From: Candidatus Woesearchaeota archaeon
Lineage (GTDB): Archaea; Nanobdellota; Nanobdellia; Woesearchaeales; UBA11576
Reading direction: 5' to 3'
DNA length: 5,577 nucleotides
Assembly (NCBI GenBank): GCA_016219765.1
Contig: JACRKM010000059.1
Span: 1-5,577, forward strand
Part shown: one piece after another, positions 1-5,577 of the stretch
Numbering within the stretch: the stretch's first letter is position 1
Layout of the letters: each line of letters starts with the position of its first letter
Notes under the pieces: model-generated
Told to the model about the DNA's origin: nothing
Seen by the model: only the letters and a program-made list of their open reading frames with translations
Databases searched by the model: none
Position numbers and translations under genes: made by a program

Positions 1-496
1 CATCCCTGTTGGCGCGGTGCTCAATCTTGTCGACGAAATGTTCAATCTGCCCCAAATACCACAAGTACAGCATGTACAAGGCAGCAAGCACAAGCCCTTC
101 TGCACGCGATATCCTGCCGTCAAGACCATACGTGAAAACGAGGACGATGCTCATCAGCATCGCTACATAATCGGTCTCGAGAAAATTACGTGTGCTGCGA
201 ATTGTCATCAGCAAACCGACAAGGCCCAGAATCAGCGTGATCTGGAACATGTTCGAACCGATATTTGCCCCAAGTGCGACCCCTGAGACAGCATCTCCCT
301 GCAGGATGTGAATGCTGGCAATAATGTGCGTCGCAAGTTCTGGCAGCGTAGTCCCGATCGAAAGGATAGTCAATCCGATGAATGTCTCTGAGATCTTGAA
401 CCGTGCGGCGAGAATTTTGCTTGAATGGATCAGTATTTCAGAACTGAACCACAGCACTGCAAGCGCCGCAAGAAGTTTAAACAGCTGAGCATACAT
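1..496 (-). CDS. Sodium/calcium exchanger (CaCA) family transporter, N-terminal part
   Basis: The first 165 residues of a cation/Ca2+ antiporter-type membrane protein; the gene runs off the left edge. The alpha-1 repeat of the family is visible: GTTLPE at about residues 48-53 (the ion-binding GT-x-PE signature), followed by GANIGSNMF at 76-84 (the conserved N-x-GSN-x-F part). Hydrophobic segments lie at about 5-18, 37-61, 70-98, 109-123 and 134-149. Members are commonly 300-350 residues with a second, inverted alpha repeat, so about half, including alpha-2, should lie outside the window. The start is the ATG at 496-494, preceded by AGAGG (505-501) at a spacing of four bases. A possible weak TATA (GATATA, around 523-517) lies upstream. 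Substrate ions cannot be read from this half. Family assignment is firm; role is known only at family level. Confidence 0.9.
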   Translation of the reverse strand, partial: MYAQLFKLLAALAVLWFSSEILIHSSKILAARFKISETFIGLTILSIGTTLPELATHIIASIHILQGDAVSGVALGANIGSNMFQITLILGLVGLLMTIRSTRNFLETDYVAMLMSIVLVFTYGLDGRISRAEGLVLAALYMLYLWYLGQIEHFVDKIEHRANRD

Positions 497-532
497 GGTG
501 CCTCTTTTTTTCAAACGTATATCAATGTATGG

Positions 533-907: not shown

Positions 908-2005
908 TTAAGTTTCTTCCAACCCCTTTGGATATGACACTCGCTTGTATTCCTTCAACATTAATGCTGAATCGATATACTTAAGATCTACTTTGAGAAA
1001 TTCCCGTATCTGTTTTTGGATGCGTTCAAACTCCTGCACGGTTGAGCACGATATCTGAATACGCGCATCCCAATTTCCGATGATGCGCTCTGCATATGTG
1101 ATATTCGGCATTGTCGCGAAAAACGTGCGGATCTGGCCCTCGCGCTTCTGCGAGTAATTATTGATCTTAAGAAACACTGAATATAACAGGTAGTTAAGTT
1201 TTGAAAGATCGATCACTGTCTGAAATTTTTTGATTACTCCCTGCTTTACAAGCTTCTTCATGCGCAAGTTGGTGGCGTCGGCTGAGAGGCGAATCTGCTG
1301 CGCAATCTGCACGATCGGCATGCGCGCGTCTTCCGAAACCACTTTGAGCAACAAGCGATCCTTTGCGTCAAGGTCAGCATGCTCGACAGTTGCCTCTTCT
1401 TCCTTGCTGATCTTTTGAACACTTTGCGTTGCTTGCTGCGGCCGCAGTAAAATGAACGCCAGATTCTCTGCTTTGATTAAATTCACGACCATCACCAGAT
1501 CGTACCGGCGCAGCGAATTGCCGCAGAAATTATCGATCTCGTCAAGGATACTCGCCAACTGCCGCTTGTCCTTCGCAATGATTGTAACTTGAATGTCCCA
1601 ATCACCACCGCACTTGAGCACCCACTTCGTGAACGGGTGATTCTTCAGAAACGTGATTATTCTCTCTTCATCTTCAGGCGCATAGTTTTGTAGTTCCAGA
1701 AGCATAACATATGATTCGTATCCTAACTTTGTGTCATTAACGATTGTGATGAAATTGCGGATGAGATTATTTTTCGTCAATCGCTTGATGCGGTAATCCG
1801 CAACTTCGCGCGAAATGCCTACCTGCTGCCCGAGCGCCTTTGATGTCATACGCGCGTGTTCATTTAGAAGACAAATAATCTCTTTATCTTTGTTATCAAG
1901 CTTTACTATATTCTTCTGCAATGAAGATTCTGCAGTGTCTTTTTCAATAGGCTCAGAAGGAAACTCATCTTCTGTTTCCAGGTCTGGTTCTTGTCTACGC
2001 GGCAT
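908..2005 (-). CDS. Double Lrp/AsnC-family transcriptional regulator
   Basis: A 365-residue DNA-binding protein made of two full Lrp/AsnC units in one chain. Unit 1 has a winged helix-turn-helix at about 36-82 (LDNKDKEII, then SREVADYRIKRL as recognition helix) and an alpha/beta ligand-binding RAM-type domain at about 93-185 with GGDWDIQV at 133-140. Unit 2 has its helix-turn-helix at 211-257 (LDAKDRLLL, ADATNLRMKKL) and RAM-type domain at 268-355 with GNWDARIQI at 310-318. Ordinary Lrp proteins are about 150 residues with one unit, so this is a tandem fusion; residues 1-33 form an acidic linker-like tail. The frame stays open upstream to 2323, but I chose the ATG at 2005-2003: upstream residues do not resemble the family, would overlap the divergent gene, and a TATA box lies about 26 bases before this ATG, as for a leaderless mRNA. 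It is placed to control the divergent cluster and possibly itself; the effector is unknown. Confidence 0.92.
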   Translation of the reverse strand: MPRRQEPDLETEDEFPSEPIEKDTAESSLQKNIVKLDNKDKEIICLLNEHARMTSKALGQQVGISREVADYRIKRLTKNNLIRNFITIVNDTKLGYESYVMLLELQNYAPEDEERIITFLKNHPFTKWVLKCGGDWDIQVTIIAKDKRQLASILDEIDNFCGNSLRRYDLVMVVNLIKAENLAFILLRPQQATQSVQKISKEEEATVEHADLDAKDRLLLKVVSEDARMPIVQIAQQIRLSADATNLRMKKLVKQGVIKKFQTVIDLSKLNYLLYSVFLKINNYSQKREGQIRTFFATMPNITYAERIIGNWDARIQISCSTVQEFERIQKQIREFLKVDLKYIDSALMLKEYKRVSYPKGLEET

Positions 2006-2177: not shown

Positions 2178-2942
2178 ATGAAAAAGCCGCATAAACAATA
2201 CGAGCGCGACTTTAGCATCGCGTATATTCTTGTCATCAGTGTTTTTGTTCTAATTGTTGCTCTTCTTGCCGTTGTTTTAGGGCCAGCACAACCACGGCAG
2301 ATCACCGCAGCGCAATCCGGCAAAACAACTTTGAGCCAAAGCGACCTCGCACTTGAGCTTGTTGCAGAAAATCCTGCTCTTTCCGCAAACGAGGCGAACA
2401 GCCTGGCCGGGAAAGCACTTTATCGATCGTTCATCACCGGAAAAGATGCTCGGCTTATATTACGGTCTCGAATAGATTCAACTCAAACAGATTCAACACA
2501 GCAGAATTTAACTCCAACGAATTTAACACAGCAGAATTTAACTCAAATAGATAAGTCAAAGCCGGCCGAATACGCATCTCGGCGAGCTAATATGGCTGGA
2601 CAAGCAGCAGATGCGCTTGCAGCACTGGCTGGCTGTCCTCCCAAAACTTCCTGCCAGAATGACAAGCTATACCAGCAGCCACAAAAGAAAGCAGATTCGG
2701 GGGTATGCACTCCCACGACCGATGTTGCAGAGTATGCACGCAACTGTCCTCCGGGTATGACTTGTGATTCAGATGGCTCTCGGTGCGTCTCTTCGTGTCT
2801 TGCAAAATTCACCTGCCAGAACAGAAAATTGTATCAACAAAAACAGATGAAGAATACCACAGGCACGTGTGCGCCCGCGTCGCGCGAGTTCGTCAAAGAT
2901 TGTCCTCGAGGATGTAATAGGAGCATGGACGGATGTAATTAA
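2178..2942 (+). CDS. Anchored surface protein with two six-cysteine modules (gene 1)
   Basis: A 254-residue protein of unknown function. Residues 1-12 are polar and basic (MKKPHKQYER), 13-35 form one membrane helix, and the rest is probably outside the cell. After a helical linker come five pentapeptide repeats (100-124) with three N-glycosylation sequons (NLT at 110, 115, 120), then two tandem modules. Cysteines are at 153, 159, 177, 190, 196, 203 and at 207, 213, 231, 242, 246, 253. Both modules share CQN-x-KLYQQ after the second cysteine and a CP-x-G turn near the end. The even count and lack of HxH or CxxC-pair metal patterns suggest disulfides. The ATG follows AGAGGT by four bases; the frame is open further upstream only over the divergent regulator. 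First gene of the cluster, with its own promoter. Its anchor differs from that of genes 2-4, but its module plan matches genes 3 and 4. Cysteine modules of this general kind occur in DPANN exported proteins; I cannot name a family. Confidence 0.82.
   Translation: MKKPHKQYERDFSIAYILVISVFVLIVALLAVVLGPAQPRQITAAQSGKTTLSQSDLALELVAENPALSANEANSLAGKALYRSFITGKDARLILRSRIDSTQTDSTQQNLTPTNLTQQNLTQIDKSKPAEYASRRANMAGQAADALAALAGCPPKTSCQNDKLYQQPQKKADSGVCTPTTDVAEYARNCPPGMTCDSDGSRCVSSCLAKFTCQNRKLYQQKQMKNTTGTCAPASREFVKDCPRGCNRSMDGCN
2475..2549 (+). repeat. Five 15-bp tandem repeats encoding [DN]-[SL]-T-x-x
   Basis: Five in-frame 15-base units start at 2475, 2490, 2505, 2520 and 2535 and encode DSTQT, DSTQQ, NLTPT, NLTQQ and NLTQI. 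Units 2 and 4 share ACACAGCAG, and units 4 and 5 share AATTTAAC. The period keeps the frame, so copy number can change the stalk length without breaking the gene. Confidence 0.85.
2916..2938 (+). repeat. 23-bp direct repeat, copy in the 3' end of gene 1
   Basis: These 23 bases (beginning AATAGGAGCATGG) encode NRSMDGC at the end of the second cysteine module of gene 1. The identical 23 bases recur at 3401-3423, across the stop codon of gene 2 in a different frame. Confidence 0.9.
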
Positions 2943-2966
2943 TATATTGGTATATTGGTTATTGAA

Positions 2967-3004
2967 TGAAAAAAGGACTGAAAGAGTAGAAAAGAGGTGA
3001 AACA
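2967..3004 (+). repeat. Intergenic leader repeat with ribosome-binding site, copy 1
   Basis: About 38 bases ahead of gene 2 (TGAAAAAAGGACTGAAAGAG onward) recur almost unchanged at 3428-3466 ahead of gene 3. The shared block contains GAGGTGA (2994-3000), the ribosome-binding site six bases before the ATG of gene 2. The block shows that the duplicated unit included the translation signal. A pair of TATATTGG copies (2943-2958) just upstream might act as a weak TATA; gene 2 could equally be read from the promoter of gene 1. Confidence 0.8.
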
Positions 3005-3006
3005 GG

Positions 3007-3405
3007 ATGGTAGAAAAAGATAACACTGGACTTTTTATTACCGCGATTGTTGCTGCTGTAGCGGTCACTGGAATTGTAATGATGTTGCTCGTTGTTGCAA
3101 ATGGCAGCAAAACAACTGCGGGTGGAGGACTTACTCAGTTGGACAGTCAAACCAGCAGTGCAGGTCAGGCGTTTTATAAGTTCGCGCAACCAGCATCGGC
3201 GCGCGCTTTCTCTGCGCCAGCTGTTGGAAACAAGAGCGGAACTGCGGGTGGCGGACTCGTGCAATTGCGCGGTAAAACGGCCAGTGGTTCAGGTCAGGCG
3301 TATTATAATAGGTTTGCGAAACCAGCATCGGCAGGCGCTTACTCCGTGCGTGCGAAACCAGCATCGGCGGGTGCTTCCTCCACGCCCGTTAATCAGTCTA
3401 AATAG
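3007..3405 (+). CDS. Anchored stalk-only surface protein lacking the cysteine modules (gene 2)
   Basis: A 132-residue protein of unknown function. Residues 1-8 are short and charged (MVEKDNTG), 9-31 form a membrane helix, and the rest is a low-complexity Gly/Ser/Ala/Gln stalk with no cysteine. The stalk has two 42-residue-period repeats: GGGLTQLDSQTSSAGQAF (39-56) and GGGLVQLRGKTASGSGQAY (81-99), then a 12-residue repeat AKPASAGA (104-111 region and 116-123). The first repeat is closest to gene 4, the second to gene 3, so the stalk is a mosaic. The first 47 bases are identical to those of gene 4. GAGGTGA precedes the ATG by six bases. The coding region stops with TAG (3403-3405) inside a 23-bp remnant of a cysteine-module 3' end, so it is probably a deletion derivative of a full-length paralogue. 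It may still make a short anchored protein. Confidence 0.7.
   Translation: MVEKDNTGLFITAIVAAVAVTGIVMMLLVVANGSKTTAGGGLTQLDSQTSSAGQAFYKFAQPASARAFSAPAVGNKSGTAGGGLVQLRGKTASGSGQAYYNRFAKPASAGAYSVRAKPASAGASSTPVNQSK
3115..3306 (+). repeat. Two stalk repeats of 126-bp period, types A and B
   Basis: Repeat A starts at 3115 and repeat B at 3241, both with ACTGCGGGTGG. Repeat B matches gene 3 (from 3575) at about 57 of 60 positions, whereas repeat A differs from B at many positions and matches gene 4 (from about 4327) well through GTTCGCGCAACCAGCA. Gene 2 thus joins two lineages of stalk sequence. Confidence 0.75.
3315..3381 (+). repeat. 36-bp-period tandem repeat in the stalk of gene 2
   Basis: TGCGAAACCAGCATCGGC occurs at 3315 and again at 3351, and the match runs on with few changes to about 3345 and 3381. 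It encodes the 12-residue units AKPASAGAYSVR and AKPASAGASSTP. A related CCAGCATCGGCG stands at about 3190. Confidence 0.8.
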
Positions 3406-3430
3406 GAGCATGGACGGATGTAAAATTTGA
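3401..3430 (+). pseudogene. Out-of-frame remnant of a lost cysteine-module 3' end
   Basis: Bases 3401-3423 are identical to 2916-2938. In the frame used by gene 1 they would read NRSMDGC, then K, I and a stop, but gene 2 enters this stretch in another frame and stops at TAG. Downstream homology resumes at about 3428 in the intergenic leader. The simplest reading is that a fuller gene 2 lost its cysteine modules, and the junction left this scrap and a frame change. Confidence 0.7.
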
Positions 3431-3466
3431 AAAAAGAACTGAAAGAGTAAAAAAAGAGGTGAAACA
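3428..3466 (+). repeat. Intergenic leader repeat with ribosome-binding site, copy 2
   Basis: Near copy of 2967-3004 placed before gene 3, with GAGGTGA at 3456-3462 seven bases before the ATG. No TATA box is evident in the 64 bases between genes 2 and 3, so gene 3 is probably read together with gene 2. Confidence 0.8.
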
Positions 3467-3469
3467 AAC

Positions 3470-4033
3470 ATGGAAGGAAAAGATAACACAGGACTTGTTG
3501 TTACCGCGATTGTTGCTGCTGTAGCGATTACGGGAATTGTAATGGCGTTGCTTGCTGTTGCAAACGACAGTAAAACTGCGGGTGGAGGACTCGTGCAATT
3601 GCGCGGTAAAACGGCCAGTAGTTCAGGGCAGGCGTTAAGGGAAGCAGTACAGACAGATGTATCTGAGGAATTTCCGACTCAGCAGGCGTCCTGTACCCCG
3701 GCGACCTGGGTAACGTGTTCTGAAGAGGGAAACTCAACGCGCGTGATGAGTATTAATGAGATGTGCGTCACGGCCGAGACTTCGGTGCCTTGCCTTCCGA
3801 AGCAGGTGTGCCCGCCAGGCGGAAGCGAGTGCGTTTGTCCAGGATCCCCGCCTCTAAGTAAATGTGAAAATGGAACGCTAATGTCGCCGGTGTGGAACAC
3901 GAATTGGTGTGATGTAGACGGCTGGCTTTCCTACCAATGTCGGCCTGGAACGGTATGTCCCGATGGTGCCAGTGGGTGTGTATTCCCACAAACAGAACAA
4001 CCACAATTGGATGAGTTTGGCGAACCCATCTGA
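3470..4033 (+). CDS. Anchored surface protein with two six-cysteine modules (gene 3)
   Basis: A 187-residue protein of unknown function. A short charged start (MEGKDNTG) leads into a membrane helix at 9-31, a single type-B stalk repeat (GGGLVQLRGKTASSSGQA, 38-55) and an acidic spacer. Two cysteine modules follow, with cysteines at 75, 83, 99, 108, 114, 121 and at 123, 132, 147, 157, 163, 170. The spacings are 7-15-8-5-6 and 8-14-9-5-6 residues, a close internal duplication. CENGTL and CPDGASGC are typical stretches. Sequons NST (88) and NGT (134) fit an exported, possibly glycosylated protein. The C-terminus DEFGEPI is shared exactly with gene 4. Cytoplasmic metal binding is less likely because there is an anchor and the cysteines are evenly spaced rather than in CxxC pairs. 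Confidence 0.82.
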   Translation: MEGKDNTGLVVTAIVAAVAITGIVMALLAVANDSKTAGGGLVQLRGKTASSSGQALREAVQTDVSEEFPTQQASCTPATWVTCSEEGNSTRVMSINEMCVTAETSVPCLPKQVCPPGGSECVCPGSPPLSKCENGTLMSPVWNTNWCDVDGWLSYQCRPGTVCPDGASGCVFPQTEQPQLDEFGEPI

Positions 4034-4041
4034 AGATAATA

Positions 4042-4155
4042 TAGCAAGTTCAGTAAATACTGGAACTTTAAGTGAACTGCTTAGAGTATCTCTGTCGACT
4101 GAACTTGCTTATTAGCAAATCGATTCAAAAGTTCATAGATTTAATCGATTTGCTA
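4042..4155. mobile_element. 114-bp double-hairpin element inserted at a TA
   Basis: The sequence after the stop of gene 3 (AGATAATA) and the T-rich block from 4158 match the continuous sequence after the stop of gene 4 (4820-4855), except that 114 bases plus one TA are extra here. The insert begins TAGCAA and ends TTGCTA and is flanked by TA (4040-4041, 4156-4157). Inside are two inverted repeats: AGCAAGTTCAGT (4043-4054) with ACTGAACTTGCT (4098-4109), and TAGCAAATCGATT (4113-4125) with AATCGATTTGCTA (4143-4155). It has no coding capacity. A TA duplication is the habit of Tc1/mariner-IS630-type transposases, so it could be a tiny passenger of one; a loss from behind gene 4 is the alternative reading. 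Confidence 0.65.
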
Positions 4156-4160
4156 TAAAA
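4153..4160 (+). promoter_or_regulatory. Possible TATA box for gene 4 at the element edge
   Basis: CTATAAAA spans the right end of the 114-bp element and its flank. A start about 26 bases on would be near 4183 and leave a leader of about 27 bases that includes AGGTGG (4195-4200). No convincing BRE precedes it. At the empty site behind gene 4 the sequence is ATAATAAAA, a poorer match, so the insertion may have made this box. Confidence 0.35.
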
Positions 4161-4186
4161 TCATTTTATTTTTTTATTTTGTTTTA
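4158..4186 (+). terminator. T-rich terminator downstream of gene 3
   Basis: Several T-runs (TTTT-A-TTTTTTT-A-TTTT-G-TTTT) lie on the coding strand after gene 3, the usual form of intrinsic archaeal terminators. A near copy follows gene 4 at 4828-4855. The 114-bp element now separates it from the stop codon. Confidence 0.6.
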
Positions 4187-4210
4187 GAGTGAAAAGGTGG
4201 GTAGAACAGC

Positions 4211-4819
4211 ATGGTAGAAAAAGATAACACTGGACTTTTTATTACCGCGATTGTTGCGGCTGTAGCGATTACGGGAATTGTCCTGCTAGTGCTTGCTGTT
4301 GGAAGCAGTAATAGAGGAGGTGGCGGTGGACTTGCTCAGTTGGACGGTCAAACCAGCAGTGCAGGTCAGGCGTATTATAGGTTCGCGCAACCAGCACCAC
4401 AGCGCGCTTACTCTGCGCTTGCTAATCCGCCCATTAAACTTCCCGCGCCGCCAAAAGATCCCATTAAACTTCCTGTGCCGCCAAAGTGTAATCTTAGTAG
4501 CGTTCAAACTTGCGTAAATGGAAACCTCATAAAGACAGTAAGCCAGTTTTCAGATTGCACAAACGCAACCAGGGTTATTGCTTGCCCGAGTGGAAAGTTT
4601 TGTCCTGATGGAAAGAGTGCGTGTGTATGTTGGATAGGCTATTCTAACGCCACTATTCCAGCTGACAAGTGTGAAGGTGGAAAGATCCTAACTGCTACGG
4701 TTGATCCAAATACCTGTACTGTGAGTTGGGGCGTTAAACAAAAATGTCCTGTCGGATGCCAGGATAAATCATCCTGCGCGCCTCAGGAAGCCTTTGATGA
4801 GTTTGGCGAACCCATCTGA
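4211..4819 (+). CDS. Anchored surface protein with two six-cysteine modules (gene 4)
   Basis: A 202-residue protein of unknown function and the longest of the three similar-anchor genes. The anchor (MVEKDNTG, helix at 9-31) matches gene 2; the first 47 bases are identical. A type-A stalk repeat follows (GGGLAQLDGQTSSAGQAYY, 38-56), then a Pro/Lys spacer with two PIKLP-x-PPK units (74-92). Cysteines are at 93, 101, 116, 125, 131, 138 and at 140, 154, 169, 179, 183, 189, giving spacings 7-14-8-5-6 and 13-14-9-3-5, the same plan as gene 3. CVNGNL, CEGGKI and CPDGKSAC mark equivalent places. Sequons NLS (94), NAT (118) and NAT (146) suit an extracellular location. AGGTGG lies ten bases before the ATG. 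It ends with DEFGEPI as gene 3 does. It sits between two T-rich terminators and may be a separate transcript. Confidence 0.82.
   Translation: MVEKDNTGLFITAIVAAVAITGIVLLVLAVGSSNRGGGGGLAQLDGQTSSAGQAYYRFAQPAPQRAYSALANPPIKLPAPPKDPIKLPVPPKCNLSSVQTCVNGNLIKTVSQFSDCTNATRVIACPSGKFCPDGKSACVCWIGYSNATIPADKCEGGKILTATVDPNTCTVSWGVKQKCPVGCQDKSSCAPQEAFDEFGEPI
4431..4486 (+). repeat. 30-bp tandem repeat encoding PIKLP-x-PPK
   Basis: CCATTAAACTTCC occurs at 4431 and 4461, and the match continues through GCCGCCAAA. The two units encode a stiff Pro/Lys spacer just before the first cysteine module of gene 4. The period keeps the reading frame. Confidence 0.85.
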
Positions 4820-4827
4820 AGATAATA

Positions 4828-4888: not shown

Positions 4889-5577
4889 ATGGTTTTTGAG
4901 CAACTCATCAGGGTTCATTGGCTTGAACGGCGACCACTTGCTGCATTCATGATCGGCGCAGCGTATTCCGTACTCGGAATTCTCTTTGCACGATTCATCT
5001 TTGCAGGAAATCCCGGCCTTGCTGCAGTCGCATTCATCTCGCTTCTCATCCTTCCATCAGTGAGTAAACTCTTGCTCGAGGAAGAGAACGCCGAAATCCG
5101 CGAGAAGAAATTCTCCCTGCAGATGCTTGTGAAGGACCACAAAGACATCATGGAGATATACTTCTTCCTGTTCTTAGGAATCTTTCTCACATTTGCAATT
5201 ATCGCGGCCATCTTTCCACAGCAAACAGTCATCAAGCTCTTCCAGGAACAACTAACAATCCTTGCAAACTACCGAGGCTATGCGCTCAGCTTTGACAATC
5301 CGCTTTGGTCAATCATGTTCAACAACCTCAAGATCGCTGTCATATGCTTCATTATGTCATTCTTCTACGGCGCAGGAGGAATCCTTCTCATCGTCTGGAA
5401 CGCATCAGTCTGGGGAGCTATCACCGGATATATCGTGAGCGAGGCCGCCGCATCAGGGCAAGGGAATCTATTTGTCCTCTTCTTCCTCACACTGCTGCCG
5501 CTCTTGCCGCACATGATCATCGAGGTCGCGAGCTACTTCTTTGCAGCAGTATCTGGAGGAGTTATCTCAAAAGCAAC
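4889..5577 (+). CDS. SpoIIM-family (stage II sporulation protein M-like) membrane protein, partial
   Basis: The first 229 residues; the gene runs off the right edge. It is a multi-pass membrane protein with hydrophobic stretches at about 17-39, 43-60, 89-110, 146-171, 193-207 and 209-225, and a charged cytoplasmic-looking loop at 64-88 (LEEENAEIREKKF). Features of the SpoIIM domain are visible: NNLKIA (145-150), a Gly-rich helix GAGGILLIVWNASVWGA (161-177), then LLPHMIIE (205-212), matching the family's L-x-PHG-x-x-E with Met in place of Gly. In spore-formers SpoIIM works in septal peptidoglycan remodelling; archaeal members are common and their role is not established, so the name denotes the fold only. 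The ATG follows GAAGTGA (4876-4882) by six bases. The gene stands 69 bases after gene 4, beyond its terminator, and its compositionally ordinary sequence suggests it is a chromosomal neighbour rather than part of the duplicated array. Confidence 0.82.
   Translation, partial: MVFEQLIRVHWLERRPLAAFMIGAAYSVLGILFARFIFAGNPGLAAVAFISLLILPSVSKLLLEEENAEIREKKFSLQMLVKDHKDIMEIYFFLFLGIFLTFAIIAAIFPQQTVIKLFQEQLTILANYRGYALSFDNPLWSIMFNNLKIAVICFIMSFFYGAGGILLIVWNASVWGAITGYIVSEAAASGQGNLFVLFFLTLLPLLPHMIIEVASYFFAAVSGGVISKA

Follow-up and report, generated by a model that had tools for sequence, protein, structure and literature searches.

Contig JACRKM010000059.1 of a Candidatus Woesearchaeota archaeon (assembly GCA_016219765.1; genome 81% complete) carries a tandem array of four genes, three of which encode proteins with exactly twelve cysteines arranged as two six-cysteine modules. 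The window analyzed here is this complete 5577-base contig. From left to right it holds a cut Na/Ca exchanger gene, a gene for a double Lrp/AsnC regulator, genes 1 to 4 on the plus strand, and a cut gene for a SpoIIM-type membrane protein:

2–514, minus strand: Na/Ca exchanger, incomplete (PF01699)
908–2005, minus strand: double Lrp/AsnC regulator, a divergent neighbor (domain scan; array-free orthologs exist)
2178–2942, plus strand: gene 1, 254 residues, with N-terminal helix, linker, repeat stalk and twelve-cysteine head (ortholog P0006)
2476–2565, plus strand: 30-nucleotide stalk repeats of gene 1, a stretch that differs in the sister genome and is nine residues shorter there
2634–2786, plus strand: gene 1 module 1, C153–C203 (cysteine spacing)
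2796–2936, plus strand: gene 1 module 2, C207–C253 (cysteine spacing)
2916–2938, plus strand: gene 1 head end, an exact 23-nucleotide repeat of 3401–3423
3007–3405, plus strand: gene 2, 132 residues, with the N-terminus typical of genes 2 to 4, a stalk and no cysteine (frame, alignment)
3401–3423, plus strand: recombination scar spanning the end of gene 2, an out-of-frame remnant of the last module of gene 1 (similar scar in the sister)
3470–4033, plus strand: gene 3, 187 residues, twelve cysteines (frame)
3692–3832, plus strand: gene 3 module 1, C75–C121 (cysteine spacing)
3836–3979, plus strand: gene 3 module 2, C123–C170 (cysteine spacing)
4007–4041, plus strand: gene 3 end (DEFGEPI), shared with gene 4 (97% identical to 4793–4827)
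4043–4155, plus strand: two adjoining hairpins between genes 3 and 4 (fold z −7.3)
4211–4819, plus strand: gene 4, 202 residues, twelve cysteines (frame)
4487–4624, plus strand: gene 4 module 1, C93–C138 (cysteine spacing)
4628–4777, plus strand: gene 4 module 2, C140–C189 (cysteine spacing)
4793–4827, plus strand: gene 4 end, shared with gene 3 (97% identical to 4007–4041)
4889–5577, plus strand: SpoIIM/COG1300 membrane protein, running past the window edge (PF01944)

Twelve-cysteine heads in a tandem array

A preliminary description of this DNA had proposed that genes 1, 3 and 4 each carry two consecutive modules of the plan C-x(5-13)-C-x(14-17)-C-x(8-12)-C-x(3-5)-C-x(5-6)-C behind a single N-terminal membrane helix. 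Every gap fits this plan. The spacings within module 1, between the modules and within module 2 are 5,17,12,5,6; 3; 5,17,10,3,6 for gene 1, 7,15,8,5,6; 1; 8,14,9,5,6 for gene 3, and 7,14,8,5,6; 1; 13,14,9,3,5 for gene 4. When the first and last cysteines of each head were held fixed and the ten inner ones were placed at random, none of 200,000 trials matched the observed likeness of the six modules (a spread of 121, against 275 or more at random). Over 92 codons, the head of gene 3 has 32% identity to that of gene 4, and synonymous sites are saturated. A Kyte-Doolittle analysis finds one hydrophobic helix near the N-terminus of each protein.

Genes 2, 3 and 4 are paralogues by their common N-terminal half (genes 2 and 4 are 73% identical over residues 1–71), and the 35-nucleotide end of gene 3 recurs in gene 4 at 97%. 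Gene 2 is headless, combining the N-terminus of its two paralogues with a complete lack of cysteines. Gene 1 is allied to genes 3 and 4 through the head plan, but its N-terminus differs.

The stalk between helix and head had been portrayed as rich in repeats and bearing sequons. Repeats are present in gene 1 (30 nucleotides, 2476–2565), gene 4 (26 nucleotides, 4430–4485) and also gene 2 (a 56-nucleotide family, 3172–3395), but the corresponding stretch of gene 3 has none listed except matches to other array genes. Sequons number 5, 3, 3 and 3 in genes 1 to 4, above shuffle means of 1.96, 0.90, 1.12 and 1.11 (P = 0.031, 0.039, 0.086 and 0.087), but all three in gene 4 lie in the head and the gene 1 ortholog has none. 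A glycosylated stalk is weakly supported.

Disulfide bonds are plausible because the genome encodes VKOR (E = 2.3e-22) and a 99-residue frame gives a DsbA-like match in part (PF13462, 5.4e-10). Neither the three heads nor the gene 1 ortholog has neighboring cysteines separated by two residues, so CxxC is absent; C-x-C occurs once in gene 3 and once in gene 4. A cytoplasmic metal-binding fold, which the preliminary description had named as an outcome that would overturn it, thus finds no CxxC-type knuckles here, although other kinds of metal site may be present. In the structure model of the gene 1 protein, a helix at the N-terminus is followed by a helical linker of low confidence and then by a beta head made of short strands (block predicted local distance difference test, pLDDT, 58–84); the gene 4 model contains two runs of strands at low confidence. 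From the VKOR and DsbA-like matches, the lack of CxxC and the gene 1 model, we infer that the heads are probably exported and stapled by disulfides.

Reach of the module family

None of genes 1 to 4 matches a Pfam or NCBIfam family above the curated cut-off, nor does any of seven module rows match a Pfam family above its cut-off. Granulin (E = 0.34) and Antifungal_pept (E = 0.43), which are likewise short cysteine-rich modules, score below threshold with one of the seven modules each. The module profile finds no sequence in the PDB at E ≤ 10, and no fold match stands out. The six-cysteine pattern thus appears to fit no described family among those searched, in keeping with the earlier portrayal of the array as a candidate for an undescribed system.

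Relatives are few. Single-query phmmer searches returned only gene 4 itself with gene 4, and gene 1 itself plus P0006 with gene 1. A profile search of proteins with the four heads (top 7996 candidates by shared words) added P0007, a short gene of the sister genome. Across the order, five of the 287 genomes match the module profile at E ≤ 0.01, and the match is strong only in this genome and its sister; the other three matches are weak (E = 0.005–0.009), and two of them are crossed by stops. Within the family, five of ten genomes match at E ≤ 1, three of them weakly. Scans of genome collections gave no locus at first and then one, JACQXV010000083.1, which corresponds to the sister genome, while among viral contigs 29 stretches fit a pattern and none is a relative. 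Literature searches found nothing linking Woesearchaeota with a cysteine-rich surface protein or DPANN with SpoIIM, and titles and opening abstract text on DPANN and cysteine-rich proteins mention no such family.

One candidate for a remote member, a twelve-cysteine protein upstream of SpoIIM in genome G022, was rejected since the module profile gives it no support: equally good scores came from 98 of 1,000 full shuffles and, with the cysteines kept in place, from 193 of 1,000. Five of its cysteines are spaced 7,14,9,5, which 118 of 20,000 shuffles match within the ranges in a comparison tried post hoc. This protein is a positional analogue rather than a proven homologue.

Array differences between two same-genus genomes

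The sister genome, G001, is a Candidatus Woesearchaeota of the same genus whose isolate name suggests a 0.1-µm groundwater fraction. Its P0006 is the single clear ortholog of gene 1, with 82% identity and all twelve cysteines retained. The next gene, P0007 (125 residues, no cysteine), is a mosaic in which a start of the gene 2–4 type is joined to a gene 1 stalk; it holds 144 nucleotides of that stalk at 94%. Elsewhere in the sister array, 135 nucleotides around a gene start are copied at 98.5%. A third copy is broken and crossed by a stop, and the sister array has no counterpart of the gene 3 or gene 4 heads. In the window, 23 nucleotides of the coding end of gene 1 recur across the end of gene 2 in another frame, and the sister repeats its own version of the gene 1 end out of frame just after its short gene. 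These scars record recombination between copies, and the breakpoints fall within or next to the heads. The different arrays of two same-genus species, their cross-copied stretches and the out-of-frame remnants of head ends together show that copies have been re-joined in this way.

Another reading is that only gene 1 works and that the other genes are recombination debris. The headless gene 2, the mosaic and broken extra copies in the sister, and the dispersed repeats beside and inside the array would all fit decaying duplicates. However, genes 3 and 4 keep open frames and twelve cysteines at the family spacing, and Shine-Dalgarno-like motifs precede their starts (GAGGTGA for gene 3, AAGGTGG for gene 4), which makes wholesale decay quite improbable.

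The repeats themselves belong to families found elsewhere. An element with inverted ends at 550–899 (TTTGTATTTGTTTAGC, one mismatch allowed) is dispersed and matches 49 times in this genome, 118 times in the sister and 7 times in G002, but not at all in G022; the reversed pattern has no match in any of the four. Several of these matches stand in facing pairs about 100–400 nucleotides apart, resembling miniature inverted-repeat transposable elements. The double hairpin at 4043–4155 is dispersed too, with copies on two other contigs of the sister at 98% and 88%.

Divergence between window and sister is uneven. Synonymous divergence (dS) reaches 2.15 in the Na/Ca exchanger, where it is saturated (165 codons), and falls to 0.60 in the Lrp gene, 0.33 in gene 1 and 0.128 in SpoIIM (229 codons), compared with 0.41, 0.66 and 0.88 for three unlinked gene pairs. 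Because the SpoIIM value is low relative to the unlinked pairs and to the Lrp gene (P = 4e-11 for the latter), the simplest reading suggests a recent exchange of the right side of the locus, with uneven mutation or codon selection as the alternative. The first 100 codons of gene 1 are less diverged (10/76 versus 35/97 synonymous sites, rounded; P = 0.0008). Relative to the ortholog, its module 1 is constrained (nonsynonymous divergence, dN, 0.017; dS 0.364), while module 2 (residues 204–254; dN 0.204, dS 0.572) and the stalk (dN 0.28, dS 0.60) are looser. The array had been called diversifying, which is borne out insofar as it differs between two same-genus species at one site but not in the sense of positive selection, as dN exceeds dS nowhere in gene 1.

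In a SpoIIM tree of 59 rows, the pair from window and sister clusters, on a long branch, with a pair of genomes from a different family (support 94/89) and apart from the SpoIIM proteins of the same-family genomes G004, G009 and G007. One control row of this tree has a very long branch and an odd make-up, and three more control rows are long.

The earlier picture of a regulated array beside Lrp-type genes is not supported. Two genomes of the same family, G002 and G006, carry its orthologs (65–67%) at the same site with neither array nor SpoIIM between the Lrp gene and orthologs (41–43%) of the sister's next genes, and Lrp was therefore rejected as a dedicated regulator. The sister's next genes, which we take to encode HAD and PUA proteins, lie beyond the point where the window stops. 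Similar Lrp-type proteins abound in the order, with matches at E ≤ 1e-20 in 38 of 59 genomes, this one included, and up to 12 per genome.

SpoIIM neighborhoods and a proposed role of the heads

The gene that follows the array matches SpoIIM (PF01944, E = 4.2e-9; score 37.0 bits, cut-off 26.9) and is 97% identical to that of the sister, where the array occupies the same place before SpoIIM. Matches to SpoIIM are present in 126 of 287 genomes. We surveyed 53 loci (13 plus 40), mostly best-scoring and thus non-random matches with window and sister left uncounted; two at contig edges were removed, leaving 51. Directly upstream of the related SpoIIM gene, 8 of the 51 encode a protein that has one helix and six or more cysteines (103–733 residues, 6–38 cysteines). 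A same-strand gene lies within 200 nucleotides upstream in 36 loci, and eight of these 36 are one-helix and cysteine-rich, compared with 7 of 238 other open reading frames of at least 70 residues from surveyed and control loci (P = 1.4e-4). Within 2.5 kb, such neighbors occur in 11 of 51 loci but in none of 20 control loci hand-picked from weaker SpoIIM matches (P = 0.027, 800-residue limit); with a 450-residue limit they occur in 10 of 53 SpoIIM loci. The gene order recurs, and a functional link inferred from it would make the SpoIIM neighbor a likelier partner than Lrp.

Individual neighborhoods vary in form. Same-family genome G007 encodes, 81 nucleotides before SpoIIM (L052:253-1173), an internally duplicated protein of 306 residues that has one helix and 25 cysteines. 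In family f42, four genomes (loci L092, L095, L102 and L103) share similar one-helix proteins of 130–134 residues and eight cysteines, 3–69 nucleotides before SpoIIM.

The nearest known kind of locus is the archaeal ‘dark matter’ cassette built on SpoIIM/COG1300 (arCOG01996). According to PMC5898192 and PMC4158269, SpoIIM cassettes with small, diverged membrane proteins occur in Euryarchaeota, and membrane remodeling or defense has been proposed for them. As in those cassettes, a SpoIIM/COG1300 paralogue here stands in a cluster beside small, fast-changing membrane proteins, at a locus that varies between relatives. The described partners, from Archaeoglobi, Methanococci and Thermococci, have three or four helices, one being Yip1-like, whereas those found here have one helix and a twelve-cysteine head, and membership of this SpoIIM in arCOG01996 is only a candidate assignment. 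No Yip1-like arCOG02054 protein (PF04893) is among the seven scanned window proteins, the contig ending inside SpoIIM. Thermococcus clusters of arCOG10027, arCOG10028 and arCOG10066, described in PMC4158269, similarly hold species-variable secreted paralogues but, unlike the scanned window genes, a metallopeptidase. The locus is a variant SpoIIM cassette in a woesearchaeotal relative, with one-helix cysteine-module partners and visible shuffling.

We propose, with a probability of about 0.48, that these genes encode disulfide-stapled surface heads that meet changing partners within a SpoIIM neighborhood. The twelve-cysteine tails of genes 1, 3 and 4, in their two spacing copies, would form beta-rich heads held outside the cell by the single N-terminal helix; the SpoIIM-type protein would help to place or export them at the envelope; and the heads would bind a variable target, which might be a competitor, a virus or the surface of a host cell. 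Heads may differ while gene ends stay alike because they bind something variable, although partner binding is the least certain step.

Several observations weigh against this proposal. The control SpoIIM paralogues, with 0 of 20 loci against 8 of 51, differ from the surveyed set only at P = 0.095, and four of the eight upstream cases come from family f42, which leaves about five independent ones. None of nine such neighbor proteins, these among them, matches the module profile. Mean pLDDT is low (51.6 and 57.6 for the gene 4 and gene 1 models), and flanking charges of the helix in genes 2 to 4 (about −1 before, 0 to +1 after) do not favor a head-out topology. The lower dN than dS in every part of gene 1, together with its constrained module 1, would suit parts of an envelope structure instead, either disulfide-linked blocks or a SpoIIM remodeling complex that has no variable partner and whose turnover reflects drift and recombination. 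Membrane remodeling has been proposed for SpoIIM homologs (PMC5898192), but genes 3 and 4 lack counterparts in the sister array and are thus dispensable there, and we regard purely structural parts as doubtful.

A further set of points bears on whether the proteins stay anchored. The motifs A-V-A in gene 3 and V-V-A in gene 2 follow the helix and are possible signal-peptide cut sites; cleavage could yield secreted rather than anchored proteins. The products might then be cysteine-rich peptides directed against other microbes in the manner of bacteriocins, cut from the helix, with SpoIIM serving export or immunity. Circular-bacteriocin clusters regularly include SpoIIM/DUF95 next to a short product that carries an N-terminal leader, and in some of them the precursor gene is present several times (PMC8659200). 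Archaeal SpoIIM islands have been proposed as membrane-associated defense (PMC4158269). However, those clusters differ from the window, where the sole transporter is the Na/Ca exchanger and no peptide exporter or peptidase appears among the seven scanned proteins of a contig that ends inside SpoIIM. The products here are also long (187–254 residues) and cysteine-rich, and match no toxin family at cut-off, so that secreted peptides seem less likely than anchored surface heads, though not negligible.

A more specific form of the surface-head proposal, unlikely as it stands, is a cassette served by SpoIIM, where recombination at the ends that the genes share would swap disulfide-stapled heads on a constant membrane anchor. 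If true, each lineage of these ultra-small archaea would show a different face to hosts, rivals or viruses. Should the SpoIIM neighborhood hold up, it would offer a gene-order handle on counterparts beyond the reach of sequence search. Host recognition and surface defense in DPANN archaea are largely open subjects, for which this locus provides a concrete, testable candidate.

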